60,917 nt of DNA, taken from Eubacterium sp. Its GTDB lineage: Bacteria; Bacillota; Clostridia; Lachnospirales; Lachnospiraceae. Where the stretch lies: assembly GCA_022794015.1 (NCBI GenBank), contig JAAWDZ010000015.1, positions 1 to 60,917 of the forward strand, given 5' to 3'. The notes below the pieces were generated by a model. That model had not been told where the DNA came from. It made no database searches and saw nothing but the letters and a program-made list of their open reading frames with translations. The translations under genes were made by a program, and so were the position numbers. Below, one piece after another: positions 40,509 to 60,781 of the stretch (positions are counted from its first letter, which is position 1; each line of letters starts with the position of its first letter).

Positions 40509-40643
40509 CAAGTAAACAAGATAACAATTGTTACTTGCGGATGTGAATCCGAATGGAGCGTACGGCCAGACGGAAGATCATTATACAACTACATAATTAA
40601 AAACAAGATTTGCAGCATGGATGCTGCAGTAAATTCAAGGAGG
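40509..40643 (+). promoter_or_regulatory. Structured flagellin 5' leader with a CsrA-type hairpin
   Basis: At the presumed mRNA start, CAAGTAA-A-CAA (40509-40519) pairs with TTGTTACTTG (40528-40537), forming a 5' protective hairpin. CGGAT/ATCCG (40538-40551) forms a second one. TGCAGC (40611-40616) and GCTGCA (40623-40628) enclose the loop ATGGAT, presenting GGA in the manner of a CsrA site. A second GGA lies in the Shine-Dalgarno AAGGAGGA 20 bases downstream, a spacing suited to one CsrA dimer. Confidence 0.65.
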
Positions 40644-40652
40644 AAAACAATT

Positions 40653-41471
40653 ATGGCAATGATAGTACAGCACAATCTTCAGGCAATGAACTCAAACCGT
40701 CAGTTAGGAGTTGTTACGAACGCACAGGCTAAATCTACAGAAAAATTATCATCTGGTTACAGAGTTAATCGTGCAGCAGATGATGCAGCAGGCCTTGCTA
40801 TTTCCGAGAAAATGAGAGCTACAGTTCGTGGTTTGAACCGTGCATCAACAAATGCTCAGGATGGTATTTCTGTAGTTCAGATTGCAGAAGGTGCATTGGG
40901 TGAAGTTCACTCTATCTTACAGCGTATGAACGAACTGGCTACTCAGGCAGCTAACGATGCTAATACTACAATCGACAGGACTGCTATTCAGGATGAAATC
41001 AATCAGCTGACAAGCGAGATTGACCGTATTCGTTCTACAACTCAGTTCAATACAATGAATCTGTTAGACGGTACATTTAGCGGAAAGAATCTGCAGGTTG
41101 GTTCCTTGTCTGGTCAGAAGATTGATATTGCAATTAGTAACATGCAGGCTAGTGCAATTGGTTTGACAGGCTTGTCAATGTCTAGTTTCGGAGCAGCAGG
41201 TTCTTCTATGGATAGGATCCAGAGCGCTATTAACTCTGTATCTACACAGCGTTCTTATCTTGGTGCTTTACAGAACAGATTAGAGCATACCATTGCTAAC
41301 CTTGATACCACAGCTGAGAATACTCAGGCAGCTGAATCTCGTATTCGCGATACAGATATTGCTTCTGAAATGGTTGAATACAGCAAGAACAACATTCTTG
41401 CTCAGGCAGGTCAGTCAATGCTTGCTCAGGCTAATCAGTCAACTCAGGGTGTATTGTCCTTATTACAGTAA
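40653..41471 (+). CDS. Flagellin
   Basis: 272-residue filament subunit with conserved D0/D1 ends: MIVQHNLQAMNSNRQLG and SSGYRVNRAADDAAGLAISE at the N-terminus, and TAENTQAAESRIRDTDIASE followed by QAGQSMLAQANQSTQGVLSLLQ-like helix at the C-terminus. The variable D2/D3 part is almost absent, so surface glycosylation would be on the D1 Ser/Thr-rich region. Its codon use and strong GGAGG site fit high expression. It is followed by a strong terminator and by the glycosylation genes. Symbol hag or fliC would both be in use. Confidence 0.97.
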   Translation: MAMIVQHNLQAMNSNRQLGVVTNAQAKSTEKLSSGYRVNRAADDAAGLAISEKMRATVRGLNRASTNAQDGISVVQIAEGALGEVHSILQRMNELATQAANDANTTIDRTAIQDEINQLTSEIDRIRSTTQFNTMNLLDGTFSGKNLQVGSLSGQKIDIAISNMQASAIGLTGLSMSSFGAAGSSMDRIQSAINSVSTQRSYLGALQNRLEHTIANLDTTAENTQAAESRIRDTDIASEMVEYSKNNILAQAGQSMLAQANQSTQGVLSLLQ

Positions 41472-43912: not shown

Positions 43913-43928
43913 AGAGGATAAGAATAAT

Positions 43929-45242: not shown

Positions 45243-45259
45243 AATAGGAGTGTGGGTGA

Positions 45260-45811
45260 ATGGACAAGTATTATGTACATGAAAGTTGTTATATCGATGA
45301 AGACGTTTTGATCGGAGAGGAAACCAAAATCTGGCACTTTTCTCATATACAATCCGGAGCGAGAATAGGCAGAAAATGTTCTTTAGGGCAAAATGTAAAT
45401 GTAGGAAACAATGTAGTGATTGGTGATTCTGTCAGAATACAAAATAACGTTTCTTTGTATGAGGGAGTTGCGTTGGAGGATGGCGTGTTTTGTGGACCGT
45501 CATGCGTCTTTACCAATGATTTGACGCCAAGGGCGCAGTATCCAAAGGGAAGGGAACATTATAAAAAGACACTTGTGAAACGAGGAGCTTCAATCGGAGC
45601 AAATGCAACTATTGTATGCGGTATAACGATTGGGGCAAATGCAATGATCGGAGCAGGAGCAGTTGTTACAAAAAATGTTCCGGATCATGCCTTGATTGTT
45701 GGTATTCCCGGACAAATTGCAGGATGGGTCTGTGAATGTGGGGCAATATTAAATGAAAAAGGCATATGTGGGGATTGTGGCAGAACATATTCTGTTTGTG
45801 CAAACAAATAA
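45260..45811 (+). CDS. wbpD: UDP-amino-sugar N-acetyltransferase (WbpD/WlbB-like)
   Basis: 183 residues, a left-handed beta-helix hexapeptide acyltransferase (repeats such as IGRKCSLGQNVNVGNNVVIG and VVTKNVPDHALIVGIPG). Its position after the dehydrogenase and before the WbpB homologue matches the enzyme that acetylates the 3-amino group of UDP-GlcNAc(3NH2)A. The C-terminus carries a four-cysteine zinc-ribbon-like tail (CECG ... CGDCG) that is a little unusual. Confidence 0.85.
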   Translation: MDKYYVHESCYIDEDVLIGEETKIWHFSHIQSGARIGRKCSLGQNVNVGNNVVIGDSVRIQNNVSLYEGVALEDGVFCGPSCVFTNDLTPRAQYPKGREHYKKTLVKRGASIGANATIVCGITIGANAMIGAGAVVTKNVPDHALIVGIPGQIAGWVCECGAILNEKGICGDCGRTYSVCANK

Positions 45812-45841
45812 GCAGAAAAAGAAACAGGTGAGGTGGTTAAA

Positions 45842-46927: not shown

Positions 46928-46928
46928 T

Positions 46929-48026
46929 ATGATAATGCATATTGTAGGGAATCGACCGCAATTTATAAAATTAGCTCCGGTTTCCAAGGAAATTAGAAAA
47001 AGGGGATATCGTCAGGTTATTATACACACCGGACAGCATTATGATGCAAATATGTCCGATGTGTTTTTTGAGGAATTAGGGATTGCAAAACCGGATCAAA
47101 ATCTTGCGATAGGAAGCGGAACGCATGCAGAGATGACGGGAAAAGCTATGATAGCGATTGAAAAAGTGTTAATGGAATATTGGCCCAAATGCGTTATTTT
47201 ATATGGTGATACGGATTCTACCTTGGCGGGTGCTATTGCAACAGTTAAAATGGAGATTCCAATTGTTCATATTGAAGCGGGTATCAGGACAAACAGTCTA
47301 AAGAATCCAGAAGAGACAAACAGGATAGTAACGGATCATTTGTCTCAAATCCTGTTCTGTTCCGATCAGGATAGTGTTAAGAATCTGAAAATGGAGGGTA
47401 TTACTAAAGGTGTATATCATGTTGGGGACGTAATGTATGATACATTTTTACAGTATAAAAGCTTAGGCAATGGAACGGCACAAACCAGATCTGGGTTAGA
47501 GAAAAAAGAATATATTCTTATGACGTGGCATCGTAAGGAAAATACACAGGATAAGAATAGAATGCTTCAAATCATACGCTTTTTAGAAAAAGTGAAGTAT
47601 CAAATTGTATATCCTATGCATCCAAGGACCAAAGCAAAGTTGATAGAATATAATTTGTTAGGTGAGTTAGAACAGATACCCCATATTCATATATTACCTC
47701 CTATTGGTTATACAGAAATGATGGATTTGATGGTGAATGCCCACATGGTTCTGACAGATTCTGGTGGGGTGTCTAAAGAATCTTTTTTTGCAGGAGTTAA
47801 GTGTGTTTTGATGGTAGATTTAGATCTGTGGCCAGATTTAATAAAAAAACATTGGATCATAAAACTGGATGTTGACAGTGAAAAAAGTATCGCTCAGGTA
47901 ATGGATTTTATGTCAACAAAAACAGATCATATTCCGCATAGTTTGGAAGGCATATATGGAAATGGAATAGCATCTGTTAAAATAGCAGATATTTTGGAAG
48001 AGCAATACAAATTAAAAAAGGAATAG
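46929..48026 (+). CDS. wbpI: Non-hydrolysing UDP-GlcNAc 2-epimerase family protein (WbpI-like)
   Basis: 365 residues. Family features: GNRPQFIKLAPV near the start, IHTGQHYDANMSD, HIEAGIRT (with NPEETNRIVTDHLS) and LTDSGGVSKES near 280. The RTNSLKNPEETNR wording is closer to WbpI than to plain WecB. The likely reaction is C2 epimerisation of UDP-GlcNAc(3NAc)A to UDP-ManNAc(3NAc)A, completing the pathway with the neighbouring genes. Ordinary UDP-GlcNAc epimerisation cannot be excluded. Confidence 0.82.
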   Translation: MIMHIVGNRPQFIKLAPVSKEIRKRGYRQVIIHTGQHYDANMSDVFFEELGIAKPDQNLAIGSGTHAEMTGKAMIAIEKVLMEYWPKCVILYGDTDSTLAGAIATVKMEIPIVHIEAGIRTNSLKNPEETNRIVTDHLSQILFCSDQDSVKNLKMEGITKGVYHVGDVMYDTFLQYKSLGNGTAQTRSGLEKKEYILMTWHRKENTQDKNRMLQIIRFLEKVKYQIVYPMHPRTKAKLIEYNLLGELEQIPHIHILPPIGYTEMMDLMVNAHMVLTDSGGVSKESFFAGVKCVLMVDLDLWPDLIKKHWIIKLDVDSEKSIAQVMDFMSTKTDHIPHSLEGIYGNGIASVKIADILEEQYKLKKE

Positions 48027-48041
48027 AAGTGAATATAGCGC

Positions 48042-49421
48042 ATGTTTGAAACAGAAAATATAGTTTTATCGGTTTTTGAAGGAATGTACAGTGAAGAAAT
48101 GCTGCTGTTATGTCTGAAAAAGTATACAGTGGTTGGTATTCTGACAAATTCTGTGGAGAGATTCTTAGAAGATCATATTTACCAGCAAATGAATTGCCAT
48201 ATTCACAAAGATTGCTACATATATGATTATAATGAAGTTTACCGGATTAGAGACAAAATAGTAGTACTTGATTTGGACTGGACAGATGATCTGCGGCTTC
48301 GGTTTGGTAATATTTTCATGCAATTTCAGAGGAAGATTGCCGTTAATTTTATATATGAAAGTATGCAGAATGGAAAAGTGGATACCAATATTGTGTTCGA
48401 ATTAATGAACAGAGATATAGATGGGTTTAAAAGATGTATTCAATTGATTGCGGATGGCCGGAAGATGTGTATTATATATGGAAATTGTCAGAGTCATACA
48501 ATTAGTTCTATGTTATGTACAAACAGAGAATTTAGAAGTAGGTTTTTTACCTGTGTGATGCCCCAATTCTGGTTGCAGGGAACTGCGGAACGAACCAGAA
48601 TGGAGACGCTGGTACAGTCTCAAATATTTAATTTAGCATCATATTTAATTACACAAGAAGTATCAGAGAATAACCGTTTTGGAGTGGAATTTTCTACTGA
48701 TTACATCAAATCGTTTATTCCAGCAGAGTGCAAAGTGATTACTATATCTAATTTGTTTTTTATGGGTTATTTTCCTCAATATAAGAAAATGAAATATGGG
48801 ACGGGCATTAATTTCTTTCATGGAAAATTGCTGGATGCCACAGAATATATGGATATCAATATTTTGAAAATGATTATAGACGATAAAACGGATGGGGATA
48901 TTTTGAACGAAGTCACCTCACAATCATTTTATAACAGAGGAGAGCTTATTGCTTCCATTCAAAAAGAGTTGGATGATTTCAAATTGCGTGAAGCAACAAT
49001 TGATATTAAAATGGGGGATTATGTTGCAGATAATTATAATAAATATCTACTGTTTGCAACTTCAAATCATCCGACAAGACTGGTATTAATGGAACTGTCC
49101 AGAAGAATATTAGCGGCCTTAGATTTCAAGGACTGTGAAATTTTATGTTCACAGGATGAGATACAAGAGCCGATGCCGAAAAACTGGAGATATTTAGTAT
49201 ATCCAAGTGTTTTGCATTGTTTGGGAATGGAAAGAGATTTGGAGTATAATTTTAAAGCAGTTCTGAATCTCAAAGAGATTGCGCTTATACCAGATGATAT
49301 CAGAATAACAGAAGCTCGGCAGTTGGCAGATAATACATTTCATATAACGGTTAGCGGAGATTTTCTGACATATATGAGGATTTATGTAAGGTGTGTCAGG
49401 GCTGCGTTGATGTTGTTGTAA
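48042..49421 (+). CDS. WcbI-like polysaccharide biosynthesis protein
   Basis: 459 residues of uncertain function. The segment MCIIYGNCQSHTISSML near residue 143-159 carries the YGNCQ signature of the WcbI domain, an SGNH-hydrolase-related fold proposed to bind CoA in capsule synthesis. The N-terminal ~130 residues do not resemble a domain I know, and the C-terminal ~100 residues (KNWRYLVYPSVLHCLGM ...) also remain unassigned. It might O-acylate the glycan. It lies between wbpI and a GT-D gene. Confidence 0.65.
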   Translation: MFETENIVLSVFEGMYSEEMLLLCLKKYTVVGILTNSVERFLEDHIYQQMNCHIHKDCYIYDYNEVYRIRDKIVVLDLDWTDDLRLRFGNIFMQFQRKIAVNFIYESMQNGKVDTNIVFELMNRDIDGFKRCIQLIADGRKMCIIYGNCQSHTISSMLCTNREFRSRFFTCVMPQFWLQGTAERTRMETLVQSQIFNLASYLITQEVSENNRFGVEFSTDYIKSFIPAECKVITISNLFFMGYFPQYKKMKYGTGINFFHGKLLDATEYMDINILKMIIDDKTDGDILNEVTSQSFYNRGELIASIQKELDDFKLREATIDIKMGDYVADNYNKYLLFATSNHPTRLVLMELSRRILAALDFKDCEILCSQDEIQEPMPKNWRYLVYPSVLHCLGMERDLEYNFKAVLNLKEIALIPDDIRITEARQLADNTFHITVSGDFLTYMRIYVRCVRAALMLL

Positions 49422-49453
49422 TTAGTAAGGAATATGAAAGGATTGGTTGTATA

Positions 49454-50518
49454 ATGGATGAAATAAAGAAGCTGCAGGAAGAAAATGAGATAATGAAATA
49501 TAAAATACAGCAAATGGAAGGGGCATTGCAGGAGTATCAGAGCGTATATCATAATTTGATAGAGCAGGTAAAGGAAGTTTGTAATGTAATTTTTGATCAT
49601 TATAAAGCGAACCAAAGAGATCATTTAACGTTGTATTCTCTGGTATATAATATGCCGTTTGAAATAGGAGACCTAAGGGGTGGGGGAGCGGAGTTTTTTT
49701 ATCCTAAAATAATTGATTCTCAAACGGCTGTTCAGGAAATAATAGATCAGAAAAAATCAATTGCACGGTTTGGAGATGGCGAGTTTGCAATAATTTGCGG
49801 ACATGTGCGTTCTCAATTTCAACGAGTAGATGAGGATTTGGGAAAGCGCTTAAAACAAGTGTTGCAATCAGATATTGATAATCTCATGATAGGTATTGCA
49901 GATAATTACGGTAATTTAGACAAATACACTGACTTTGCAGCAAATGGAATTCGTCTTTATATGCAAAATGATATTAGAAGAGAGCATATGGAATTATTGT
50001 CGAGCGATCGGATATATTATGATGCATATCTTTCAAGGCCATATGTTATGTATCGAGATCATTTTACAGATGCACCCAAGAAGCGTTTTGAGCATTTAAA
50101 ACAAATCTGGGATGGTCGGGATGTTATTATGGTTGAAGGGGCACAGACAAGGCTTGGCGTGGGGAATGATTTATTTGATAACTGTAAAACAATACGAAGG
50201 ATATTAGCACCTGCTACAGATTCCTATGATCGTTACGATGATATTTTACAGTCTGCGATTAGGAATGGAAAAGAAGGTGATTTATTTATTATTGCTACAG
50301 GTCCGTCAGCAGGAGTATTTGCGTACGATTTGACATTGAAAGGATTTCAGGCTGTAGATGTTGGACATGTAGATATTGAATATGAGTGGTATTTAAATGG
50401 CACTGGGGAAAGAACGGCGGTAGCACATAAATATACGCATGAGGTTTCAGGGAAGGAAGAGGCGGAAGAAATTCATGATCCGGTATATGAATCGCAAATT
50501 GTAGATGCTTTTTATTAG
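49454..50518 (+). CDS. GT-D fold glycosyltransferase (DUF1792 type)
   Basis: 354 residues. After an N-terminal coiled coil (EIKKLQEENEIMKYKIQQME) the segment SIARFGDGEFAIICG near residue 101-115 carries the DGE metal-binding motif of GT-D enzymes (DUF1792), known from serine-rich-repeat protein glycosylation in streptococci. GPSAGVFAYDLTLKGFQAVDVGHVD near the C-terminus is also typical. It would add a sugar to the growing flagellin glycan; donor unknown. Confidence 0.82.
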   Translation: MDEIKKLQEENEIMKYKIQQMEGALQEYQSVYHNLIEQVKEVCNVIFDHYKANQRDHLTLYSLVYNMPFEIGDLRGGGAEFFYPKIIDSQTAVQEIIDQKKSIARFGDGEFAIICGHVRSQFQRVDEDLGKRLKQVLQSDIDNLMIGIADNYGNLDKYTDFAANGIRLYMQNDIRREHMELLSSDRIYYDAYLSRPYVMYRDHFTDAPKKRFEHLKQIWDGRDVIMVEGAQTRLGVGNDLFDNCKTIRRILAPATDSYDRYDDILQSAIRNGKEGDLFIIATGPSAGVFAYDLTLKGFQAVDVGHVDIEYEWYLNGTGERTAVAHKYTHEVSGKEEAEEIHDPVYESQIVDAFY

Positions 50519-50538
50519 AAGTGGTAAGGGGGGCTATT

Positions 50539-53136
50539 GTGATAAGGTTTTGTGATAGGGATGTATATTGCACCGCAGTAAGTAAATGTAATCTGAGTGA
50601 TATTATATGTTTTATGAATCATAATAAAGAAGAAATTGTTTGCTTTTTAGACGATAGCGAAAGATTTTTTGGATATGTTTCGTATAATGGGTTTACAAAT
50701 GAGCTTCTAAAACAAACAGAGTATTCCGAAGAAGAAATTTCCTATGCAATTCTGGAACAGTGTTTGCTTCAATCGATCAGGCGTGAATATGTCGTATTTG
50801 ATAGGAATATCTGGAAAGAGGCACGAAAATATTTTAAGGATAGTTTCCGGAATTTGAGCAGTATGCCATTGCTCCCTGTTGTGGATAAGAATGGACAATT
50901 GATGTGTTTTGCGTGGGATGATGAAGAGGCAAATCAAGAAATTCGGATGTTGGATGAACTAATGGAGCGGGAAGACAGTGTGCTTGGCTTTCGAGATGTG
51001 TTTCCAGAATATGACGGTGTGACTGTATATGGTTTTAATGAATTGGTTTACTATTTTATTATGTATTTAAAACAACAGGGAATTTTATTCAACGCAAAAG
51101 ATGAAATGTGGGTACAGTGCGGTGAATGGAAAAGGCTTGATACGTCAAAAGAATCTTTTTTAGAACATAAAAATTTTATTATTTATGGTGAGGGAAACGT
51201 TCATAAAAAAGAAAAAAAGATAGAGAAACGTGACAGTGTTTCAGCAGAGTTTGAGTGTATTAATCAGATTTATGAATTGAATTTCTGTAAGGGAAAGATA
51301 AATGATACAGAAGAAAAATTCCATTCATTTTTAAATAGAATGGCTCATAGGCAGATAGGAATCATTGGGACAGATCTTTGCGCATTTAATGCATATGATT
51401 TATTGTTAAAATATGGAATGGATATTGCATGTTTTATTTCAGAAGCAGATCAGGAAAAGACAGAGTTTTTGTTCGGGAAAAAAGTAATAAGTATGGCAGA
51501 AGCCATGGAGAGAATAGGTGAAATGGAATTTATTGAACCTTGTTCTCAATACAGCGCTTTGGGTAATAGGGAGGTAAATTGTTATCACTATTATTTTGGC
51601 CTTAGGCGAAATCAAAAAATATTTTTTTTAAAGGATTATATTGACATACCTGATAGTGGCTTGTTGAATGTTCTGAACAATATCATTTTAAATTCAAAAT
51701 GTAAATTGGTGCTGTTTGGTGATTTTTCGTTTTGTTTACAGTTGAAACGGATAATTCAAGTGAAGAATCAGGAAATTGATGAAAGGATAGTATATTGTGA
51801 CATCTTGCAGGAGCATACAGTTGAAATACAACGGATAAAGAAAATAGAAGCAAACACGATTAAAGAAACAGATATTTGCCTGATTTTAATGCCCGAGCAT
51901 TATCATTTTTCTCCATATCAGATTTATCATTGGGAAAAAAATATCCTTGAAAAAATACATACGCGGTTAAAGGAACTTTGCTTGAATAATTTCATAGATT
52001 ATCCAACGCATAATACTGCTATGTTGGAATATACGAATGACCAAGAACGACCAGTATGTCCGGATTTAAAAGCTGGGAAAATAATTATTGGCTGTATTGA
52101 GCCGTATAGCGGAAATATTTTTTTTAGAGGTCTGTTGGATAATCATCCCGATGTATTAATTTTGGATTATAGCTCTTTAAATAGTAATTTATATACGGTT
52201 TGTACGAGATTGAGTGAGGAAAAAGCGGCAGATATATTGGCTTTGTTTTGGCAGCTATTTGAAGTAGATTACATACAGGATCCCGAAAATATCTGGAATA
52301 GTGAAAAGCGAAGAATATTTCACGAAAAGATGCAGGAAATGCTGTCAGTGAAGGAAAAGTTTACATCACAGGAATTGTTTGTTATGATCCATATTGCGCA
52401 TGCAAAAATGTGGGGAAAGGATGTAAATGATATTTCTGAGATGACCATTTATTGGGAACCTCATTGCGTACCCATTAATCAATGTGAAGAATATTCCATT
52501 TGGTTGGATAAAGCAGCTGCATCCGGATGTATATTAAATCTGGTGCGTGATTCACGTATTCGATCCGGTTCTGTCCTTGGAACAGCCAAAAAAGAGAAGC
52601 GGCCATTTGGAGTTTGGGTATTTCCGACTGTTTTACATAGTCCGGATGAACAGAAAAATGAGAGTCTAAGCTGGAAACGGATCACTGTAAAGTTTGAAGA
52701 TTTAAAATGTAATCCACAAAAGCATCTGCATTCGCTTTGTGGTCAGTTAGGAATTGCCTGGTCAGATACGTTGCTTCAGACGACATTACATGGAGAGCAG
52801 GAGTTTTATGGCAGTGTCACCGGATTTGATTTGGCGCCGGTTTATCGCATCCACGAAGAATTTTTTTCGACATTTGACAGGTTTCGGATTGACTTAATAA
52901 CGGGGCCATGGCAAAAAAAATACGGTTATCCATATATTGAAAGTCTGGAGTTTGGCAGAAGAGAATTACAGGATATGTTTCAAAAGGAATTTCGGTTTGA
53001 ATCTATGATACAATGGCAAAGCGATGAGGAAAAAAACGCTGTGCATAAATGGGTTTGGAAACTGATTTCCAGTTTATTATGGAAAGCCCGCAGAGTAGAA
53101 ATAATGGAACGGAAAGAGAAAATGTTTGAGGCATAA
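50539..53136 (+). CDS. Large protein with sulfotransferase-like C-terminal domain; candidate phosphoramidate transferase
   Basis: 865 residues, GTG start behind a GGGGGG stretch. The N-terminal 500 residues are mostly unrecognised; a Rossmann-like unit (IGIIGTDLCAFNAYDLLLKYG) occurs near 275-295. The C-terminal third resembles sulfotransferases: EPYSGNIFFRGLLDNHPDVL at 521-540 mirrors the PAPS 5'-phosphate loop and first helix, and VKFEDLKCNPQKHLHSLCGQ near 717-736 mirrors the conserved YEDL-type segment. There are no genes for PAPS synthesis nearby, but an APS-kinase-like gene of the phosphoramidate pathway is, so the donor may be 3'-phospho-CDP-phosphoramidate. This is an inference. Confidence 0.6.
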   Translation: MIRFCDRDVYCTAVSKCNLSDIICFMNHNKEEIVCFLDDSERFFGYVSYNGFTNELLKQTEYSEEEISYAILEQCLLQSIRREYVVFDRNIWKEARKYFKDSFRNLSSMPLLPVVDKNGQLMCFAWDDEEANQEIRMLDELMEREDSVLGFRDVFPEYDGVTVYGFNELVYYFIMYLKQQGILFNAKDEMWVQCGEWKRLDTSKESFLEHKNFIIYGEGNVHKKEKKIEKRDSVSAEFECINQIYELNFCKGKINDTEEKFHSFLNRMAHRQIGIIGTDLCAFNAYDLLLKYGMDIACFISEADQEKTEFLFGKKVISMAEAMERIGEMEFIEPCSQYSALGNREVNCYHYYFGLRRNQKIFFLKDYIDIPDSGLLNVLNNIILNSKCKLVLFGDFSFCLQLKRIIQVKNQEIDERIVYCDILQEHTVEIQRIKKIEANTIKETDICLILMPEHYHFSPYQIYHWEKNILEKIHTRLKELCLNNFIDYPTHNTAMLEYTNDQERPVCPDLKAGKIIIGCIEPYSGNIFFRGLLDNHPDVLILDYSSLNSNLYTVCTRLSEEKAADILALFWQLFEVDYIQDPENIWNSEKRRIFHEKMQEMLSVKEKFTSQELFVMIHIAHAKMWGKDVNDISEMTIYWEPHCVPINQCEEYSIWLDKAAASGCILNLVRDSRIRSGSVLGTAKKEKRPFGVWVFPTVLHSPDEQKNESLSWKRITVKFEDLKCNPQKHLHSLCGQLGIAWSDTLLQTTLHGEQEFYGSVTGFDLAPVYRIHEEFFSTFDRFRIDLITGPWQKKYGYPYIESLEFGRRELQDMFQKEFRFESMIQWQSDEEKNAVHKWVWKLISSLLWKARRVEIMERKEKMFEA

Positions 53137-53148
53137 AGGAATAAAGTT

Positions 53149-55479
53149 ATGGAACAGTTGGGGACAAAAGCGGAAACGCTAAACAGGTTGTACGGGCAGT
53201 TGCAAAATGCCAAAGTATTACCGCAGCTTTGTTTTACCGTAAAAGAATGGGAAAATAAAAAGGCAAAAATTGTAGAGACTTTTCATGGGCTGGAATGGAA
53301 TACTTCGGTTGTAGTCAGGAGCAGTGCCTTAAGCGAAGACACTGCGTCAGAATCAGGGGCAGGGAAATATGAATCGGTGCTGGATGTATCCGGAGAGAGA
53401 GAATTTGAAGCTGCCGTAACGCAGGTAATCGCTTCATACGAAGACTTAAATGAGAATAATCAGATATTAGTCCAGCCGATGTTAAAGAAGGTAATGCTTT
53501 GCGGTGTGGCATTTACAATAGATCCGAATACGCTGGGTCATTACTATGTGATCAATTATGATAAAACCGGATCGACATCTGCTGTTACGTCTGGAAGAGG
53601 GACAGAGAACTTCTTATATTACCAGTTTAAAAGTGAGGAGTGCTGGAACGGTCCGGCTGATATGCAAAGGATTTGTAAGGCATTAAAAGAGCTGGAGACA
53701 TTTTTTTGCCAGGAGAATCTGGACGTTGAATTTGCGGTAACAGAAGAAGGCATCATTTATATTATGCAGGTCAGGTCGCTTTGTTTAAAAAGAGAGACTG
53801 TGGACTATGGCAAACAGAAGAATGATTTAATACAGATTACAGAAAAGATTAAAACAGCTCAGGCCCCCAAACCTTTTTTGTGCGGAAGAAAAGCCATTTA
53901 CAGCGTTATGACAGACTGGAATCCTGCCGAAATGATAGGGATTCGTCCCAAACCGCTGGCGATGTCTTTGTACCGGGAGATTATTACAGACAGCGTATGG
54001 GCATACCAGAGGGATAATTATGGATACCGCAATTTAAGGAGCTTCCCATTAATGGTGGATTTCTGTGGAATGCCATACATTGATATCCGTGTAAGCTTCA
54101 ATTCGTTTATTCCGGCCGAGCTGGAGGAAGAACTCAGTGAGAAGCTGGTAAATTATTATATTGACCGTCTGACGGAACATCCCCAGAAGCATGATAAGGC
54201 AGAGTTTGAGATTGTATTTTCGTGTTATACATTGGATTTGCCGGAGCGCATACAGATCTTGAAGGATTATGGTTTTTCAGAAGTTGAGATACAGAAGCTG
54301 TTAGATGCGTTAAGGAATGTGACCAACCGGATCATAGATCATGAAAATGGCTTATGGCGCAAAGATTATGGCAAGATAGAGATATTAAATAAACGGTATG
54401 AAGAAATTATGTCCAGCAGCCTAAGCGATATGGAAAAGGTATACTGGCTTTTGGAAGATTGTAAGCGTTATGGAACGCTCCCATTTGCCGGATTAGCAAG
54501 AGGGGCTTTTATTGCAGTTCAGATATTGCAGTCTTTGGTCAAATGCGGGATTCTTTCAAAGCAGGATTATGAGTGTTTTATGAACGGTGTCAATACGGTG
54601 AGTTCTACAATGAATGCGGACTTTACAGGTTTGTCAAAAGACGCGTTCCTGAAAAAATATGGTCATCTGCGGCCGGGGACATATGATATTAATTCTTTAC
54701 GTTATGATGAAGCGCCGGAGCTTTATTTTCAGTGGGGTGGAGTAAAAAATGGGCAGGATAAGAATGAAAACGAGGAGTTCCGCCTTTCACTGCACCAATT
54801 AAATGAATTAAGAAATGCCCTCTCGAAGAACGGCCTTACGAATGATATATTGGACTTAATGGATTTTATTAAAACCGTAATCGAAGGCAGAGAATATGGT
54901 AAATTTGCATTTACCAGAAATTTAAGCAAGGCAATCCAGTTGATTGGAGAAATCGGGCTAAGGGAAGGAATATCAAAGGATGATAGCGCTTTCATCAACA
55001 TACATGCCATATATGAGTTGTTTTCTTCTGCTAAGGACATTCGGGAGAGTCTGTTGTATTCTATACAAAAGGGGAAATGCGATTACAAAAAAGCACAGTC
55101 TGTCACCCTCCCACCTGTAATTTTGCATCCGGCGGATGCCATGCGGTTTTATTACCCGGACTCGGAACCTAATTATATTACGTCGGGGGCTGTAAGAGGT
55201 GAAACATGCGTATTAGGAGAACGAATGTGTAAAGAGGATATGGAAGGTAGGGTAATTCTGATTCCAAGCGCAGATCCGGGATACGATTGGATTTTTTCAC
55301 ACCGGATTGGAGGATTTATTACAATGTATGGCGGAGCGAATTCACATATGGCGATCCGGGCAGGCGAGCTTTTGATTCCAGCCGTTATCGGCGTGGGGGC
55401 AAAAGATTTTGACAGATATTCCAAAGCACAGATATTAGAAATCGATGCAGCAAGTAAATTAGTAAGAATTTTAAAGTGA
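53149..55479 (+). CDS. PEP-synthase-like kinase, probable L-glutamine kinase (Cj1418-like)
   Basis: 776 residues with the two ends of PEP synthase/PPDK but not the PEP-binding barrel. The N-terminal ATP-grasp domain has VVVRSSALSEDT near 62 and ends at IIYIMQVRSL near 208. The C-terminal swivelling domain has the phospho-histidine motif GGANSHMAIRAG, with H733. The middle (about 230-650) is different from PEP synthase and probably binds another substrate. Cj1418 of C. jejuni has this architecture and phosphorylates the side-chain amide of glutamine. The four neighbours match the rest of that pathway, so I prefer glutamine kinase to PEP synthase. Confidence 0.82.
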   Translation: MEQLGTKAETLNRLYGQLQNAKVLPQLCFTVKEWENKKAKIVETFHGLEWNTSVVVRSSALSEDTASESGAGKYESVLDVSGEREFEAAVTQVIASYEDLNENNQILVQPMLKKVMLCGVAFTIDPNTLGHYYVINYDKTGSTSAVTSGRGTENFLYYQFKSEECWNGPADMQRICKALKELETFFCQENLDVEFAVTEEGIIYIMQVRSLCLKRETVDYGKQKNDLIQITEKIKTAQAPKPFLCGRKAIYSVMTDWNPAEMIGIRPKPLAMSLYREIITDSVWAYQRDNYGYRNLRSFPLMVDFCGMPYIDIRVSFNSFIPAELEEELSEKLVNYYIDRLTEHPQKHDKAEFEIVFSCYTLDLPERIQILKDYGFSEVEIQKLLDALRNVTNRIIDHENGLWRKDYGKIEILNKRYEEIMSSSLSDMEKVYWLLEDCKRYGTLPFAGLARGAFIAVQILQSLVKCGILSKQDYECFMNGVNTVSSTMNADFTGLSKDAFLKKYGHLRPGTYDINSLRYDEAPELYFQWGGVKNGQDKNENEEFRLSLHQLNELRNALSKNGLTNDILDLMDFIKTVIEGREYGKFAFTRNLSKAIQLIGEIGLREGISKDDSAFINIHAIYELFSSAKDIRESLLYSIQKGKCDYKKAQSVTLPPVILHPADAMRFYYPDSEPNYITSGAVRGETCVLGERMCKEDMEGRVILIPSADPGYDWIFSHRIGGFITMYGGANSHMAIRAGELLIPAVIGVGAKDFDRYSKAQILEIDAASKLVRILK

Positions 55480-55491
55480 AGGAGAATGGAA

Positions 55492-56259
55492 ATGCAATAT
55501 GGAGATTTTACAGAATTAGCTAAGTTTTATGGTAATCGCCCAGGTTATTCAAAAGCAGTGTTAGAATGCTTAAAAAATCATGTTTTCCATCAGGTGAAAG
55601 AAGGAAAAGTGGCAGATATCGGGGCTGGTACGGGAAAATTAACGGAGAATTTGCAAAGTTTGGGATTGAGTGGGTATGCAGTGGAACCAAACGAGGCAAT
55701 GCGGGCTGAGGCGAAAAAAAATATTGGAGCGAATCAATTCGTTTGGTCGACAGGTTCGGCGGAAGCCTCTGGCCTTAAAGATAATTGCGTCCAGTGGGTT
55801 TTGATGGGCTCATCTTTTCATTGGACAGACAGTGCTCAGGCCGTGAAGGAGTTTCATCGGATATTGGTGCCAGGCGGATTTTTTACGGCTATTTGGAATC
55901 CGAGAAATATTGAAAGCAGTGATTTGCATAAAAGGATTGAAGAGGCTGTTTATTCAGAAGTACCTGACTTAAAACGTGTTTCTTCTGGGAAATCTGTTTC
56001 TACGCAGGAAATGGAGGAAAAGCTGCTTTACGGTGGATATTTTAAAGAAATTTTATTTATGGAAGCGCCACATGTAGAGGTTATGACAAAAGACAGGTAT
56101 ATGAATACATGGAGATCTGTCAATGATATTCAGGTTCAGGCTGGGGAAGAAGGTTTTAGAAGGATATTAGAAAAAATTGAACAGATTATTCGCGAGTATG
56201 ATGAAATTGAGGTGCCATATCTGTCCAGATCATGGACTGTTCAAAGTTGTAAAAAATAA
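55492..56259 (+). CDS. SAM-dependent methyltransferase (class I)
   Basis: 255 residues. SAM-binding motif I VADIGAGTGKLTENL near residue 40, the GYAVEPNEAMR acidic strand, and FHRILVPGGFFTAIWNPRN follow the class I order; SSFHWTDS is typical of Methyltransf_11 proteins. It is embedded among phosphoramidate genes, where C. jejuni has two methyltransferase genes (cj1419, cj1420), so O-methylation of the phosphoramidate is a natural guess. I chose the second ATG because AAGGAG is only one base before the first. Confidence 0.82.
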   Translation: MQYGDFTELAKFYGNRPGYSKAVLECLKNHVFHQVKEGKVADIGAGTGKLTENLQSLGLSGYAVEPNEAMRAEAKKNIGANQFVWSTGSAEASGLKDNCVQWVLMGSSFHWTDSAQAVKEFHRILVPGGFFTAIWNPRNIESSDLHKRIEEAVYSEVPDLKRVSSGKSVSTQEMEEKLLYGGYFKEILFMEAPHVEVMTKDRYMNTWRSVNDIQVQAGEEGFRRILEKIEQIIREYDEIEVPYLSRSWTVQSCKK

Positions 56260-56295
56260 CTGGAGGAAACAGTTTGGATTAAGAGGGTGGAACGG

Positions 56296-56904
56296 ATGAA
56301 GATTGTATTATATACACAACGGGTTGAGATCGTAAAAAATTATGGGGAAAGGCGGGATTGCGCCGATCAGTCTATCCCTCGGTTTATAGAAGCATGTGGC
56401 TATCTGCCTGTTCCGATGCCAAATATCTGGAGTGTCGCAGAGCATATGTTAACGTGTCTGAACCCTTCAGGAATTGTCTTTACAGGAGGAAACAGCCTGG
56501 AAAAGTATGGAGGAGACGCTCCGGAAAGAGATGAACTGGAGTATAAGGTATTGGATTTTGCATTGTTTCATGGACTTCCTGTATATGGTTTTTGCAGGGG
56601 CATGCAGGTAATTGCAGATTATTTTGGTTGTATGTTAGAGCAGGTGCAGGGACATGTTGCCGTACGGCATGAGGTTCTTGGAGAATTGGGGACATTATAT
56701 GTGAATAGCTACCATAATCAGGCGTGTTTTATGGTCAAGCCGCCATTAGAAGTTTTGGCGAGGGCAAAAGATGGTGTGATTGAGGCTGTCTGTTGTAGGG
56801 ATAAACATATTTTGGGTACAATGTGGCATCCGGAACGGGAACAATGGTTTTGCGAATCGGATATGGCACGGCTCCAAAAGTTATTTCGGAAAGAGGGAAT
56901 TTAG
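56296..56904 (+). CDS. Class I glutamine amidotransferase-like hydrolase, probable gamma-glutamyl-CDP-amidate hydrolase (Cj1417-like)
   Basis: 202 residues. The nucleophile elbow YGFCRGMQVI contains the catalytic cysteine (near residue 95) and MWHPERE near 177 supplies the His-Glu pair; the PuuD/gamma-glutamyl hydrolase subfamily is indicated by IVFTGGNSLEKYGGDAPERD. Cj1417 of C. jejuni hydrolyses CDP-L-glutamine to cytidine diphosphoramidate and glutamate. No synthetase subunit is present to receive ammonia. GAGGG stands eight bases before the ATG; an upstream GTG is less likely. Confidence 0.82.
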   Translation: MKIVLYTQRVEIVKNYGERRDCADQSIPRFIEACGYLPVPMPNIWSVAEHMLTCLNPSGIVFTGGNSLEKYGGDAPERDELEYKVLDFALFHGLPVYGFCRGMQVIADYFGCMLEQVQGHVAVRHEVLGELGTLYVNSYHNQACFMVKPPLEVLARAKDGVIEAVCCRDKHILGTMWHPEREQWFCESDMARLQKLFRKEGI

Positions 56905-56907
56905 ACG

Positions 56908-57687
56908 ATGAAAGTAATTATTTTAGCTGCCGGGCAGGGGACAAGGTTAAAACCACTGACAGACGACAGGCCCAAATGTATGGTGGAGGTGAAAGGACGT
57001 AGCATTATAGATCGTCAGTTAGATACTATGCATGCCTGTGGGATTGCATATGAGGATATTACCATGGTGGCGGGATACAAAAGCGATGCGCTGGTTGAAA
57101 AATACAAAGATACAGCAATCCGTATTATAATTAATACAGACTATGAAACTACGAATATGGTTTGCTCCTTAATGTGCGCAAAAGAATTGATGGAGCATCA
57201 GGAGGATATTCTGATTTCATATGGCGACATTATATATGATGAGTCGGTTTTACAGAAAATACTGGATTCTAAGGAGGATAGTTCGGTTGTTGTGGATGAC
57301 GGATGGTTTGGTTATTGGGCTGAGCGTTGCGAAAATCCTCTGGATGATGCAGAAACTCTAACGTATGATAATATGGATTATTTAACGGAGATTGGACAGA
57401 AGACAACGGATTTAAATAAAGTGCAGTCCCAGTATATCGGGCTAATGCGGTTTCAGGGGGATGGTTTAAAGGCAATGCTTGCCCTTGCGAAAGAAGCGGA
57501 GGGCAGATCTAACAGGGGGGAAGCTTTATGGCGTACAACACGTATTTATCAAAAGATGTATATGACGGATTTACTGCAAGGATTAATTGACGAGGGCAGC
57601 AAGCTTAAGGCAATACATATCAACCGAGGATGGTTTGAAGTGGATAATTGCGATGATTTGAATGTGGTGGAGAGCCAGATTTTATAA
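56908..57687 (+). CDS. Nucleotidyltransferase, probable CTP:phosphoglutamine cytidylyltransferase (Cj1416-like)
   Basis: 259 residues. The sugar-nucleotidyltransferase signature is MKVIILAAGQGTRLKPLTDD with PKCMVEVKG; SYGDIIYD near 110 holds the metal-binding Asp, and GWFEVDNCDDLNVVE is near the end. Enzymes of this kind (including choline-phosphate and Cj1416 cytidylyltransferases) activate small phosphorylated molecules. It begins four bases after the hydrolase gene and precedes the APS-kinase-like gene, the same set as in C. jejuni. A choline-phosphate or sugar-phosphate substrate remains possible. Confidence 0.82.
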   Translation: MKVIILAAGQGTRLKPLTDDRPKCMVEVKGRSIIDRQLDTMHACGIAYEDITMVAGYKSDALVEKYKDTAIRIIINTDYETTNMVCSLMCAKELMEHQEDILISYGDIIYDESVLQKILDSKEDSSVVVDDGWFGYWAERCENPLDDAETLTYDNMDYLTEIGQKTTDLNKVQSQYIGLMRFQGDGLKAMLALAKEAEGRSNRGEALWRTTRIYQKMYMTDLLQGLIDEGSKLKAIHINRGWFEVDNCDDLNVVESQIL

Positions 57688-57723
57688 AAAGACGCGTTCT
57701 TAAGCGGTTAGCGGGAGATGAAT

Positions 57724-58254
57724 ATGCAAGGAAAGCTATTTTGGATGACAGGGTTATCCGGTGCGGGAAAAACCACGCTGGGGAATATGTTGTACGATTA
57801 TCTGAAAAAACAGTATCCCAATACGGTATTATTTGACGGGGACGCATTGCGGCAGGCATTTGGGAATGATTTGGGTTATTCTAAGGAGGAGCGCTTTCAA
57901 TGTGCAATGCGTTATGCCAGACTTTGTAAGCTATTGGTGGATCAGGGAATGTATGTGGTTTGCTGTACGATATCTATGTTTGAGCAAGTGAGGGAATGGA
58001 ACCGCAGTAATATCCGGGGTTATGTGGAAGTGTATATTGAAGTACCCGCTGCGGTGTTAGAGGAAAGGAACCAGAAGAATCTTTATCAGGGGTTAAAAAC
58101 AGGTGCAGCAAAGAATGTCGTGGGGATGGATTTGGAGCTGGAACTGCCGAAAGAGCCGGATATCCGGCTTCTGAATGACGGAAGGAAAACGGCGGAAGAG
58201 ATGTTTTGTATGCTAATAGAAAATATAGATTCGATTGATTTAGGAGGAATGTAA
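57724..58254 (+). CDS. APS-kinase-like protein, probable cytidine diphosphoramidate kinase (Cj1415-like)
   Basis: 176 residues. P-loop GLSGAGKTTLGN near residue 11, FDGDALRQAFGNDLGYSKEE (APS kinase DGD motif) and KNVVGMDLELELPKEPDI near the C-terminus. True APS kinases serve sulfate assimilation, of which no gene is seen here. Cj1415 phosphorylates the 3'-OH of cytidine diphosphoramidate, giving a PAPS-like donor. The second ATG is favoured because GGGAG is six bases before it. Confidence 0.82.
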   Translation: MQGKLFWMTGLSGAGKTTLGNMLYDYLKKQYPNTVLFDGDALRQAFGNDLGYSKEERFQCAMRYARLCKLLVDQGMYVVCCTISMFEQVREWNRSNIRGYVEVYIEVPAAVLEERNQKNLYQGLKTGAAKNVVGMDLELELPKEPDIRLLNDGRKTAEEMFCMLIENIDSIDLGGM

Positions 58255-58255
58255 T

Positions 58256-59470
58256 ATGCAGCTGAGAAAGAAAATACCGTTCTTTGATTTAAACCGCCAG
58301 TATGAGATGATAAAAGACAAAGTGAATGTCGCCGTATATGATGTGCTTTGTTCCGGGCAGTTTATAGAGGGACCTGCGGTAAAAGAACTGGAGAAGAAGT
58401 TAGGGGAATATTTGGGAGTGAAACATGTCATAACCTGTGGGAATGGGACAGATGCACTGCGCATTGCGCTAATGGCGAATGGAGTAGGAGAGGGTGACGA
58501 AGTGATCGTTACGGCATTTTCCTTCTTTGCAACAGCAGAAGCGATTGCACAGGTGGGGGCAATTCCGGTATTTGTAGATATATCGCCAGATGATTTCAAT
58601 ATGTGTGTCAGTGCTCTCAGGGAAAAAATATCCGATAAGACAAAAGCGATACTGCCTGTCCATATTTTTGGGATGCCTGCTGATATGGATGGAATCAACA
58701 AGATTGCAGTGGAGTATGGTATTCCGGTGCTTGAAGATGCCTGTCAGGCTATAGGCGCTGTTTATAAAGGGAAAAAGGCCGGGGCATTGGGAACAATAGG
58801 ATGTTTTTCCTTCTATCCTACAAAAAATTTGGGAGCATTTGGAGACGGGGGCATGATGGCGACAAATGACGATAAACTTGCCAATACATGCCGCGCTATT
58901 AAATCTCATGCATCAGGAAAAACCGGGTGGAGGACATATGTGGATTTGTATGATCCGGCGGCAGGAGAATTGGAGCAGTGGAATGGGGAATCAGGTTCGG
59001 ACAATCTGTATGATCCATTCAAATATTATAATTATTTTATCGGGTGCAATTCCAGACTGGACAGTATACAGGCAGCAGTTTTACTTGTAAAATTGAACTA
59101 TTTGGATAAGCTGAATGAAAAAAGGAATAAAATAGCGGATGCCTATGCAAAAGGGCTTGCCGGCTTGCCGCTTCAGATTCCGCAAAGCGCTCCACAAAAC
59201 AATTATTCCTGCTGGCATCAATATGCCATTTTGTGTGATAAAAAGCAAGAGCTTATACAGTATTTAGCGGATCATGGTATTGGGGCTGGTAATTTTTACC
59301 CTGTTCCTTTGCATTTGCAGAAGGCTTTTCAGTATTTAGGCTATTCAGAGGGAAGTTTGCCGGTTGCAGAGGAAATTTGCAGGAAGTCGGTTTGTCTTCC
59401 TATATTTCCAGAGTTGACAGATGACGAGGTGGAATATATCATAGATACTTTAAAGAGCTATTTTAGATAG
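58256..59470 (+). CDS. wbpE: DegT/DnrJ/EryC1 aminotransferase (WbpE-like)
   Basis: 404-residue PLP-dependent sugar aminotransferase. IPFFDLNRQY at the N-terminus, GNGTDALRIAL near 62, EDACQAIGA near 160 and the PLP lysine in FYPTKNLGAFGDGG near 188 are seen. It resembles WbpE/WlbC, which aminates the 3-keto group made by WbpB; it is the only component of that pathway not adjacent to the others, lying about 11 kb downstream behind the phosphoramidate genes. Confidence 0.8.
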   Translation: MQLRKKIPFFDLNRQYEMIKDKVNVAVYDVLCSGQFIEGPAVKELEKKLGEYLGVKHVITCGNGTDALRIALMANGVGEGDEVIVTAFSFFATAEAIAQVGAIPVFVDISPDDFNMCVSALREKISDKTKAILPVHIFGMPADMDGINKIAVEYGIPVLEDACQAIGAVYKGKKAGALGTIGCFSFYPTKNLGAFGDGGMMATNDDKLANTCRAIKSHASGKTGWRTYVDLYDPAAGELEQWNGESGSDNLYDPFKYYNYFIGCNSRLDSIQAAVLLVKLNYLDKLNEKRNKIADAYAKGLAGLPLQIPQSAPQNNYSCWHQYAILCDKKQELIQYLADHGIGAGNFYPVPLHLQKAFQYLGYSEGSLPVAEEICRKSVCLPIFPELTDDEVEYIIDTLKSYFR

Positions 59471-59572
59471 AAGGAAACGTTGGGCTATATACGCATAGAA
59501 CGGCAGAAGTGCCTCGTATAGCTGCCAATATATAATGTGCAAAAAGAGTGGGTTAAAGGAGTAAAGCAGATA

Positions 59573-60781
59573 ATGGATAAAGTACCAATTATGAAGCCTT
59601 ATATTGGACAGGAAGAAATGGATGCTGTAACACAAGTTTTGCAGAGCGGCTGGCTTGTTCAGGGAGCAAAGGTAAAAGAATTTGAGGAACGGGTTGCAGA
59701 ACGGGAAGGAGTGGAGTTTTGCTGTGCTACAACGTCGTGTACAACAGCGTTGCAGTTGGCAATGATGGCAGAGGGAATGAATGATGGTATGGATGTCATA
59801 GTGCCCTCTTTTACATTCGTGGCAACAGCAAATGCTGTGGTTTCCACAGGCGCTACACCGATTTTCTTAGATGTTTGCAGGGATACCTATAATTTGGATG
59901 CTGATATAACAGAACATTATATCGAACAAAATTATTTTTTGAGGTTCGGTAAATGGATCAGCCGTAAAAGTGGAAATCAATTATGGGGGATCGTTCCAGT
60001 ACATCAGTTTGGCCTGTTCGCCAATATGCCGAAGTTGAATCAAATAGCCAGAAATTATGGGTTAAAAATTGTGGAAGATGCGGCATGTGCATTGGGAGCA
60101 AAAATTGAAGAAATTCGTTTAGGTGGGTTTGGAAATCCGGCTTGCATCAGTTTTCATCCCAGAAAATCAATTACAACAGGAGAGGGAGGAATGATTTTGA
60201 CCAACGATGAAGAATTGTACTGCAAGGTTGTTGAATTGCGGAATCATGGAAGCGCTGTTGGTTCAGATGTCAGAGACAAAGGAGAAGGGTATCTGCTTCC
60301 GGAGGTCAGAACTGCCGGGTTTAATTACAGAATGACAGATTTACAAGGGGCTATCGGTTGTGAGCAGATAAAAAAGCTGGATTACATTTTAAAGGAACGC
60401 AAGCAGATAGCGCAAAATTATGATGAATTGTTGGAACAAAAAGCATTGATTCAGGCGCCGTTCGTGCCAAAGGGTTATTACCATGCCTTTCAATCTTATG
60501 TTTGTATGTTGGATTTATCCGGCAGCATTGAGCAAGTCAGAGAAAAAAGGCGGCAGATAATGTATGAGTTGGAACGGGATGGAATTGTGACAAGGCAGGG
60601 AACGCATGCCGTGCATAAACTGGATTATTATAAGAAGCGTTATGGGTTTGAGGATAGTGATTTGCCTGTTGCAGCTCGCTGTGATTCGTTGAGCATTTCG
60701 TTGCCGTCATTTGTAGGTCTTTCTTATGAGACACAGGTTAAAATTGTGGAGAAGTTGAGGAAACTGATAGAAAAAAGGTAG
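59573..60781 (+). CDS. Second DegT/DnrJ/EryC1 sugar aminotransferase
   Basis: 402 residues, distinct from the preceding aminotransferase. CCATTSCTTALQLAM near 55, EDAACALGA near 166 and FHPRKSITTGEGG near 190-200 with the PLP lysine (K in PRKS). The PRKSITTGEGG wording is typical of PseC/ArnB/PerA-type enzymes acting on 4-keto sugars. The start ATG has AAAGGAG upstream (spacing 11); a GTG 36 bases before it is possible. It may provide a second amino sugar, perhaps from the epimerase/dehydratase product. The cluster probably continues beyond the window. Confidence 0.87.
   Translation: MDKVPIMKPYIGQEEMDAVTQVLQSGWLVQGAKVKEFEERVAEREGVEFCCATTSCTTALQLAMMAEGMNDGMDVIVPSFTFVATANAVVSTGATPIFLDVCRDTYNLDADITEHYIEQNYFLRFGKWISRKSGNQLWGIVPVHQFGLFANMPKLNQIARNYGLKIVEDAACALGAKIEEIRLGGFGNPACISFHPRKSITTGEGGMILTNDEELYCKVVELRNHGSAVGSDVRDKGEGYLLPEVRTAGFNYRMTDLQGAIGCEQIKKLDYILKERKQIAQNYDELLEQKALIQAPFVPKGYYHAFQSYVCMLDLSGSIEQVREKRRQIMYELERDGIVTRQGTHAVHKLDYYKKRYGFEDSDLPVAARCDSLSISLPSFVGLSYETQVKIVEKLRKLIEKR

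Follow-up and report, generated by a model that had tools for sequence, protein, structure and literature searches.

The question raised by this locus is whether five genes lying behind a flagellin gene in a Eubacterium sp. of the Lachnospiraceae encode the phosphoramidate-donor pathway known from the Campylobacter capsule, and whether their product reaches the flagellin glycan. The window, that is, the whole stretch of DNA analysed, comprises 60,917 nucleotides of contig JAAWDZ010000015.1. In our reading, the cassette probably makes 3'-phospho-CDP-amidate (CDP, cytidine diphosphate), and an adjoining enzyme with a sulfotransferase fold moves the phosphoramidate from it to a sugar of the flagellin glycan. 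The making of a CDP-amidate donor is considered very likely by analogy with Campylobacter, and delivery of phosphoramidate to the flagellin glycan, which is read from gene position, is considered fairly likely. Gene content, family scores, conservation of the cassette, gene fusions, folds, the distinction of the kinase from phosphoenolpyruvate (PEP) synthase and the flagellar neighbourhood were computed directly.

An earlier note on this DNA had described five consecutive genes at 53149-58254. All five open reading frames were found there on the plus strand, intact and tightly spaced, with intergenic gaps of 6, 27, 3 and 30 bases. The first product had been described as a PEP-synthase-like kinase without the PEP barrel, and its profile scores agreed: 952 bits against NF004508, which we take to be the family covering Cj1418, versus at most 52 bits against any PEP-synthase model (cut-offs of at least 598 bits). 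Its only Pfam domains were PF01326 and PF00391, and no PEP-barrel Pfam domain was detected in it at an E-value of 0.01. The phospho-histidine motif GGANSHMAIRAG with H733 was present as described, and His733 was found in 83 of 84 aligned kinases, the remaining row having a gap. The model of the kinase aligned with rifampin phosphotransferase (5fbt) over 593 residues, compared with 205 for PEP synthase 2ols. The three-domain layout is shared with 5fbt, whereas the middle (substrate) domain and the sequence family differ (19% identity over aligned residues, root-mean-square deviation 10.6).

The labels given to the other four products (methyltransferase, class I glutamine-amidotransferase-like hydrolase, nucleotidyltransferase and adenosine 5'-phosphosulfate (APS)-kinase-like protein) were borne out at the family level by profile scores. 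The best NCBIfam match of the hydrolase was NF045546 (gamma-glutamyl-CDP-amidate hydrolase) at 105.4 bits, the second-best reaching 51.7 bits. The same model matched 76 of 76 aligned hydrolases, across which Cys103, His181 and Glu183, presumably the class I amidotransferase catalytic triad, were invariant. The nucleotidyltransferase was of the MobA/NTP-transferase type, with CTP:phosphocholine cytidylyltransferase 1jyk (CTP, cytidine triphosphate) as nearest solved structure; the earlier note had listed a better fit to choline-phosphate enzymes as a result that would refute it, but a likeness of fold does not settle the substrate and is weighed neither for nor against that reading.

Two APS-kinase-like proteins are encoded in this genome, namely the window protein and a domain within a 642-residue CysNC-like frame beside CysD on contig C43. 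The latter domain scored 231 bits and contains FISPYRSDR, which aligns with TISMFEQVREWNR of the window protein; ISP[YF]R is, we assume, the signature of the APS kinase family. The window protein scored below the TIGR00455 cut-off (123.5 vs. 138.7 bits) and passed NF004041, a broad subfamily model named adenylyl-sulfate kinase (177.5 vs. 127 bits).

By analogy with Campylobacter, the glutamine-kinase-like protein would act first, and the resulting N-phosphoglutamine would be coupled by the nucleotidyltransferase with cytidine monophosphate (CMP) from CTP. On the same analogy, the hydrolase would remove glutamate to give CDP-amidate (CDP-NH2), the 3'-OH of which would be phosphorylated by the APS-kinase-like enzyme. 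We take Cj1418 to be the glutamine kinase, Cj1417 the hydrolase, Cj1416 the cytidylyltransferase and Cj1415 the 3'-kinase. The product of the fourth step would be a look-alike of 3'-phosphoadenosine 5'-phosphosulfate (PAPS), with cytidine in place of adenosine and phosphoramidate in place of sulfate. For the fifth step, we propose that the C-terminal domain of the protein encoded at 50521-53136 would bind the 3'-phosphate by Arg676 and Ser684 and pass the phosphoramidate to a sugar, probably a 2,3-diacetamido-uronic acid of the flagellin glycan. The methyltransferase may finally methylate the tag.

Species-representative genomes were scanned with the kinase alignment, yielding at least 567 relatives. 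The best 80 were kept as named loci (L numbers), so that these lean toward the window's kind. Cassette genes were counted up to 9 kb from the kinase, and a locus was treated as well flanked if its kinase had at least 5 kb of sequence on each side, which held for 52. Alignments A5 and A6 cover 40 of 75 and 32 of 63 proteins, respectively.

Near the 80 kinases, the hydrolase was found in 75 cases, the nucleotidyltransferase in 76 and the APS-kinase-like gene in 68, of which six were fusions, and a methyltransferase of at least 90 bits in 57. All four core enzymes were present in 66 of the 80 named loci and in 48 of the 52 well-flanked ones, which rules out chance clustering; the exceptions among the latter had no APS-kinase-like gene (L063, L066, L084) or no hydrolase (L079). 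The part of the earlier note that saw a complete Campylobacter-type donor pathway stands insofar as the four enzyme types recur as a conserved cassette, in some loci with fused members, and is weakened by the hydrolase score (105 vs. the NF045546 cut-off of 250 bits).

Fusions were of two kinds. The kinase and hydrolase are joined in a protein of about 1,010 residues in L027 and L028 (G017, G094), two genomes of the window's own family, and the APS kinase and the kinase are joined in six loci (L089, L091, L096, L108, L109, L110) titled Acidobacteria, Acidobacteriaceae, Bryobacteraceae or Gammaproteobacteria. A gene for a phosphatase of the haloacid dehalogenase type directly follows the kinase-hydrolase fusion in L027.

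The kinase tree, confined to kinases longer than 700 residues (84 rows), carries labels of nine phyla and places the window kinase with those of Lachnospiraceae and Eubacterium. The picture of the earlier note, with the pathway in Campylobacter and one Firmicute, proved too narrow: the kinase family with its cassette reaches beyond these, and the aligned kinases stand under nine phylum labels. Among 150 genomes of its own family, 7 (its own included) had the kinase over the cut-off, and among 398 genomes of a broad phylum sample 1 did, namely its own. Five of the seven own-family kinases were divergent, with 33-35% identity for the four aligned, and the cassette can therefore be called widely spread yet rare. 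No separate hydrolase, nucleotidyltransferase or APS-kinase-like gene was detected near these five, two of which have the hydrolase fused.

L029, L030 and L031 (G070, G129, G040) have a divergent NF004508 kinase, close to which neither a hydrolase nor a nucleotidyltransferase nor an APS-kinase-like gene was detected; in L030 its neighbours are housekeeping genes (RsgA, ribulose-phosphate epimerase, PASTA kinase, PP2C, bactofilin, undecaprenyl diphosphate synthase). Perhaps these are lone amide kinases with another role. Full-length kinase relatives also occur on plasmids of Vibrio alfacsensis, Azospirillum and marine alphaproteobacteria (matches H1-H8), and five of the eight matches extend over a gene whose annotation names a hydrolase of the expected family; as judged from these sequences, the cassette can be plasmid-borne. 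Viral contig L115 and phage record H27 were among the viral and phage matches. No Campylobacter record appeared among the best 80 of at least 567 kinase loci or among the viral-contig, plasmid and phage matches; as the 80 best were retained, Campylobacter may sit among the loci not kept. Searches of the PDB gave no relative named after the Cj1415-Cj1418 genes.

The gene set reaches upstream to 50521, where a sulfotransferase-fold protein absent from the earlier note is encoded. Its sulfotransferase-fold domain covers residues of about 505-871 (nucleotides 52033-53133), and the residues N-terminal of it belong to no clear family. A PAPS-type sulfotransferase fold was found together with the Arg676/Ser684 pair, an R-x7-S arrangement which we take to be the 3'-phosphate site of PAPS sulfotransferases. 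The best structural alignments were with the CurM sulfotransferase 4gbm and the tyrosylprotein sulfotransferases 3ap1/5wri, at 14-19% identity. Unlike these PAPS sulfotransferases, with which it shares fold and residue pair, the window's transferase family lies in a CDP-amidate cassette, also in genomes without a detected ATP sulfurylase. This overlooked protein is the likely phosphoramidate transferase.

The transferase family was found near 36 of the 80 named kinases. It was present in 25 of the 52 well-flanked loci, all 25 of which also have the APS-kinase-like gene; this co-occurrence is weak when taken alone, because merely 3 of the 52 loci are without an APS-kinase-like gene. Of 46 clustered proteins, 40 entered the family alignment (A3), with five fragments and a near-copy set aside; of 37 domains, 35 entered the domain alignment (A4), with two near-copies set aside. 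A few relatives of the N-terminal part of about 500 residues (50521-52032) have weak PglD_N or Methyltransf_14 matches. At L102:6252-8680, two more sulfotransferase-family genes, one with tetratricopeptide repeats, lie between flagellin and kinase, adjoining the APS-kinase-like gene.

The earlier note had also placed the genes in a flagellar glycosylation island behind flagellin, and this setting was confirmed. The late flagellar stretch, from FlgK-like to flagellin, occupies 30662-41471 and contains, upstream of the flagellin gene (40617-41471), two FlgK-like genes, one FlgL-like gene, FliW, FlaG, FliD, FliS and FlgN. It is contiguous with the sugar genes of the island, whose sixteen genes run in one direction at 41705-60781; the island may be cut off, because the contig stops at 60917.

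The flagellar link was then followed in 46 genomes hand-picked from the 80 loci, with preference for longer contigs and one per set of near-copies, so that 34 were omitted. The kinase and, as a control, rmlA were compared with the same listing of flagellin matches, rmlA by eye. A flagellin-family match was present in at least 43 of the 46 genomes, and in at least 18 of the 46 a flagellin-family gene lay within 30 kb of the kinase, while a generous chance estimate gave at most 3.6. The control gene, found in 40 genomes, lay within 30 kb of a flagellin-family match in one of them, among the matches listed. The difference in proximity, again among the matches listed, gave a Fisher p of 2.1e-5, or 1.2e-4 with the four Pseudomonas-like genomes counted as one. 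In these four, which belong to the 18, the nearest of the matches listed is FlgL-like and the next flagellin is 10-14 kb off. The listed distance from kinase to flagellin-family gene is 9.7 kb in Chitinibacter tainanensis DSM 15459 (L073) and 22.6 kb in A. colihominis DSM 17241 (L054). The kinase directly follows FlgK and an FlgL-like gene in Pseudomonas L064; in L102 the cassette lies behind flagellin, with flagellin on each side by whole-genome coordinates. The cassette is enriched near flagellin-family genes in other genomes, in a sample that leans toward the window's relatives.

Several observations weigh against the pathway and the flagellar acceptor as proposed. The hydrolase is well under the curated cut-off of NF045546, the nucleotidyltransferase matches no family that fixes its substrate, and the likeness to Cj1415-Cj1418 is one of enzyme families, not of directly compared sequences. 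The transferase is recognised as a sulfotransferase through its family and model, its own sequence scoring 14 vs. 27 bits (Sulfotransfer_3, E 0.06). The fold alone does not reveal which donor is used, and the window protein could be a sulfotransferase, because its own genome can probably make PAPS. As clustered, the transferase family is missing within 9 kb in 44 of the 80 cassettes, although a profile search adds a member in two loci (L070 and L090). Finally, 28 of the 46 genomes have no flagellin-family gene within 30 kb of the kinase among the matches listed, partly since contigs end.

If the APS-kinase-like and sulfotransferase-fold proteins made and used PAPS, the locus would be a sulfation island, and the other three genes would be unrelated to it. 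The fold of the transferase domain and the NF004041 score are in keeping with this, and so is the CysD of this genome (486 bits) with the APS-kinase domain adjoining it. Our expectation that the genome would have no ATP sulfurylase was ruled out by this CysD, and the argument from a missing ATP sulfurylase rests for this reason on other genomes. Sulfation nevertheless appears highly improbable, as the likely true APS kinase is encoded elsewhere in the genome, the window protein is without the ISPYRSDR stretch and under the TIGR00455 cut-off, and six loci encode the glutamine-kinase-like protein as a fusion with an APS-kinase domain. Across 47 genomes, ATP sulfurylase PF01747 was over its cut-off in 4, and CysD was over its cut-off in 16, with any match at E 0.001 in 27. 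Eighteen genomes matched neither at E 0.001, although many genomes are draft assemblies, where a missing match may reflect a gap and counts for less. The APS-kinase-like gene is present in 16 of the eighteen, and 10 have in addition a sulfotransferase-fold gene near the kinase, which argues against PAPS as the donor. One of the 10, Anaerotruncus colihominis DSM 17241 (L054), is represented by its complete chromosome, and there a PAPS-based role is hard to see.

The donor might also be made as proposed and spent on another surface polymer, such as a capsule or wall polysaccharide, with the flagellar site serving as a gathering place of sugar genes. The 28 genomes with no flagellin-family gene listed nearby would agree with this, as would C. 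jejuni, where the acceptor is the capsule in the available parts of the sources (PMC11800397, PMC3907429). We regard it as unlikely in view of the enrichment over the rmlA control, the direct continuation from FlgK and the FlgL-like gene in L064, the flagellins on both sides in L102, and the start of the window's island behind flagellin with a family 2 glycosyltransferase. A phospho-amino-acid tag resembling the C. difficile type A glycan, in which CDP-activated phosphoglutamine would be moved whole and the hydrolase would have another job, is very unlikely. Its attraction is that C. difficile flagellin carries phosphodiester-linked N-methylthreonine, for which the partly available report proposes a CDP-threonine route (PMC10714395), and that CDP-glycerol phosphotransferase-like genes lie near several cassettes. 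Yet no PF04464 match was found among the 16 island proteins scanned in the window, the hydrolase accompanies 75 of 80 kinases, kinase and hydrolase form one protein in two loci, and a 3'-kinase would have no use in such a route. It is scarcely credible that housekeeping enzymes (PEP synthase, glutamine amidotransferase, sugar nucleotidyltransferase, APS kinase) adjoin here by chance. The plasmid relatives are publicly annotated as PEP-utilizing enzyme and gamma-glutamyl-gamma-aminobutyrate hydrolase, against which stand the kinase score gap of 952 vs. 52 bits, the cassette in 48 of 52 loci and the fusions.

If phosphoramidate transfer from 3'-phospho-CDP-amidate, as we prefer, is extended beyond this genome, it would amount to a second PAPS-like group-transfer system in bacteria of many phyla. 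In it, 3'-phospho-CDP-amidate would replace PAPS, 3'-kinases of the APS-kinase family would arm the donor, sulfotransferase-fold enzymes would spend it, and phosphatases of the inositol-monophosphatase family may clear the 3'-phospho-CMP, with phosphoramidate repeatedly placed on flagellin glycans. Lineages without the 3'-kinase (Treponema, some Oscillospiraceae) may use a CDP-glycerol-phosphotransferase-like enzyme on CDP-amidate itself. Taken jointly, we hold this extended reading to be about equally probable as its failure.

An inositol-monophosphatase-family gene lies inside the cassette at L073:12899-13711 and L076:7876-8658. As this superfamily includes phosphatases of 3'-phosphoadenosine 5'-phosphate, the gene would suit clearing of the 3'-phospho-CMP by-product. 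In L057, L059, L065, L066 and L084, no APS-kinase-like gene and no sulfotransferase-fold gene were detected, and a PF04464-like (CDP-glycerol-phosphotransferase-like) gene lies within 2 kb of the kinase. This suggests, on numbers too small to carry more, that cassettes without the APS-kinase-like gene use CDP-amidate directly. An association of the missing 3'-kinase with the PF04464-like transferase was not upheld in the well-flanked loci (2 of 3 vs. 14 of 49, Fisher p 0.22); the cases are too few, and it is kept as a lead only.

In comparison with known systems, as far as these are covered by the available parts of the sources cited here, the closest is the O-methyl phosphoramidate pathway of C. 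jejuni (Cj1415-Cj1418; PMC11800397), where the same four enzyme types adjoin with a methyltransferase beside them, accompanied in the window by a transferase candidate; the product here would by analogy be CDP-phosphoramidate 3'-phosphate. The window differs in that its cassette lies within a flagellin glycosylation island of a Lachnospiraceae-like genome instead of a capsule locus, and in that its hydrolase scores far under the threshold set by NCBI for the characterised enzyme. The type A flagellin glycan of C. difficile (CD0241-CD0244; PMC10714395) likewise bears phosphorus and would use a CTP-derived donor, as proposed there, but its tag is an amino acid phosphodiester attached through a TagF-like transferase, by a proposed route without glutamine kinase, hydrolase or 3'-kinase.

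Phosphoramidate outside Campylobacter is represented by the lipooligosaccharide phosphoramide of Xanthomonas campestris (PMC8042644) and by predicted O-methyl phosphoramidate proteins of Borg elements (PMC12660748), neither of them flagellar. Within Campylobacter, the tag was found by nuclear magnetic resonance in 9 of 13 tested strains carrying the genes (PMC3907429). According to a 2022 review, the glutamine kinase is specific to C. jejuni (PMC9561416), and a 2019 review describes the modified sugars as so far identified only in Campylobacter (PMC6429109). A literature search covering mostly titles and the beginnings of abstracts, with few subscription papers, gave no prior report of phosphoramidate on flagellin, which is weak evidence; nothing was found on O-methyl phosphoramidate together with a sulfotransferase.

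The donor chemistry is already known; the apparent novelty lies in how widely the cassette is distributed, in its place among flagellar genes and in the sulfotransferase-fold candidate for transfer. If the proposal is true, the pathway extends across many phyla, including gut commensals, it serves flagella besides capsules, and the transfer step gains a candidate enzyme class. Phages and the innate immune system encounter flagellin glycans, and C. jejuni phage F336 reportedly recognises the capsular phosphoramidate.

Table 1. Flagellin gene and the sixteen genes of the glycosylation island, with window coordinates (aa, amino acids; SAM, S-adenosylmethionine; UDP, uridine diphosphate; HexNAc, N-acetylhexosamine).
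Coordinates	Strand	Product and candidate role	Family evidence
40617..41471	+	Flagellin; true start probably a few codons later	PF00669 145.6 bits, PF00700 96.7 bits
41705..42991	+	Family 2 glycosyltransferase directly after flagellin; candidate flagellin glycosyltransferase, from its place	PF00535
43016..43912	+	NAD-dependent sugar epimerase/dehydratase	PF01370
43929..45242	+	Nucleotide-sugar 6-dehydrogenase; probably UDP-HexNAc to uronic acid	TIGR03026 426.8 bits, cut-off 189.8
45260..45811	+	Hexapeptide N-acetyltransferase; putative WbpD-like role	PF00132
45833..46927	+	Gfo/Idh/MocA 3-dehydrogenase; putative WbpB-like role	PF01408
46857..48026	+	Non-hydrolysing UDP-HexNAc 2-epimerase	TIGR00236 251.3 bits, cut-off 210.2
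48042..49421	+	WcbI-like polysaccharide biosynthesis protein	PF18588 98.6 bits
49391..50518	+	GT-D fold glycosyltransferase	PF08759 273 bits
50521..53136	+	Candidate phosphoramidate transferase, 871 aa	C-terminal sulfotransferase-fold domain
53149..55479	+	Glutamine-kinase-like dikinase, 776 aa: ATP-grasp, helical middle domain, phospho-His domain (His733)	
55486..56259	+	Class I SAM methyltransferase, 257 aa; candidate O-methylation of tag or glycan	PF08241
56287..56904	+	Class I amidotransferase-like hydrolase, 205 aa; candidate gamma-glutamyl-CDP-amidate hydrolase	NF045546
56908..57687	+	Nucleotidyltransferase, 259 aa; candidate CTP:phosphoglutamine cytidylyltransferase	PF12804/PF00483
57718..58254	+	APS-kinase-like protein, 178 aa; candidate CDP-amidate 3'-kinase	PF01583 117.7 bits
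58256..59470	+	DegT-type sugar aminotransferase; putative WbpE-like role	PF01041 408 bits
59537..60781	+	Second DegT-type sugar aminotransferase	PF01041 328 bits

The sugar genes of the island (6-dehydrogenase, 3-dehydrogenase-like gene, two aminotransferases, acetyltransferase and 2-epimerase) fit, as far as sequence families can indicate, a route to UDP-2,3-diacetamido-uronic acid, which is the Wbp pathway. A di-N-acetylhexuronic acid occurs on the flagellin of some Clostridium botulinum strains, for which the available part of the source describes no phosphoramidate (PMC2674064). Because the window's genes fit such a sugar and it has been seen on flagellin there, phosphoramidate on a diacetamido-uronic acid is predicted.

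Single assignments within this route varied in strength. The second-best families of the 6-dehydrogenase were UDP-ManNAc (N-acetylmannosamine) dehydrogenase models, under their cut-offs, and the best NCBIfam match of the 3-dehydrogenase was UDP-GlcNAc (N-acetylglucosamine) 3-dehydrogenase at 137.8 bits, under the cut-off of 450. The listed start of the 2-epimerase overlaps the preceding gene, and the true start is probably later. The family of the WcbI-like protein is named for polysaccharide biosynthesis and is found here within a flagellin island.

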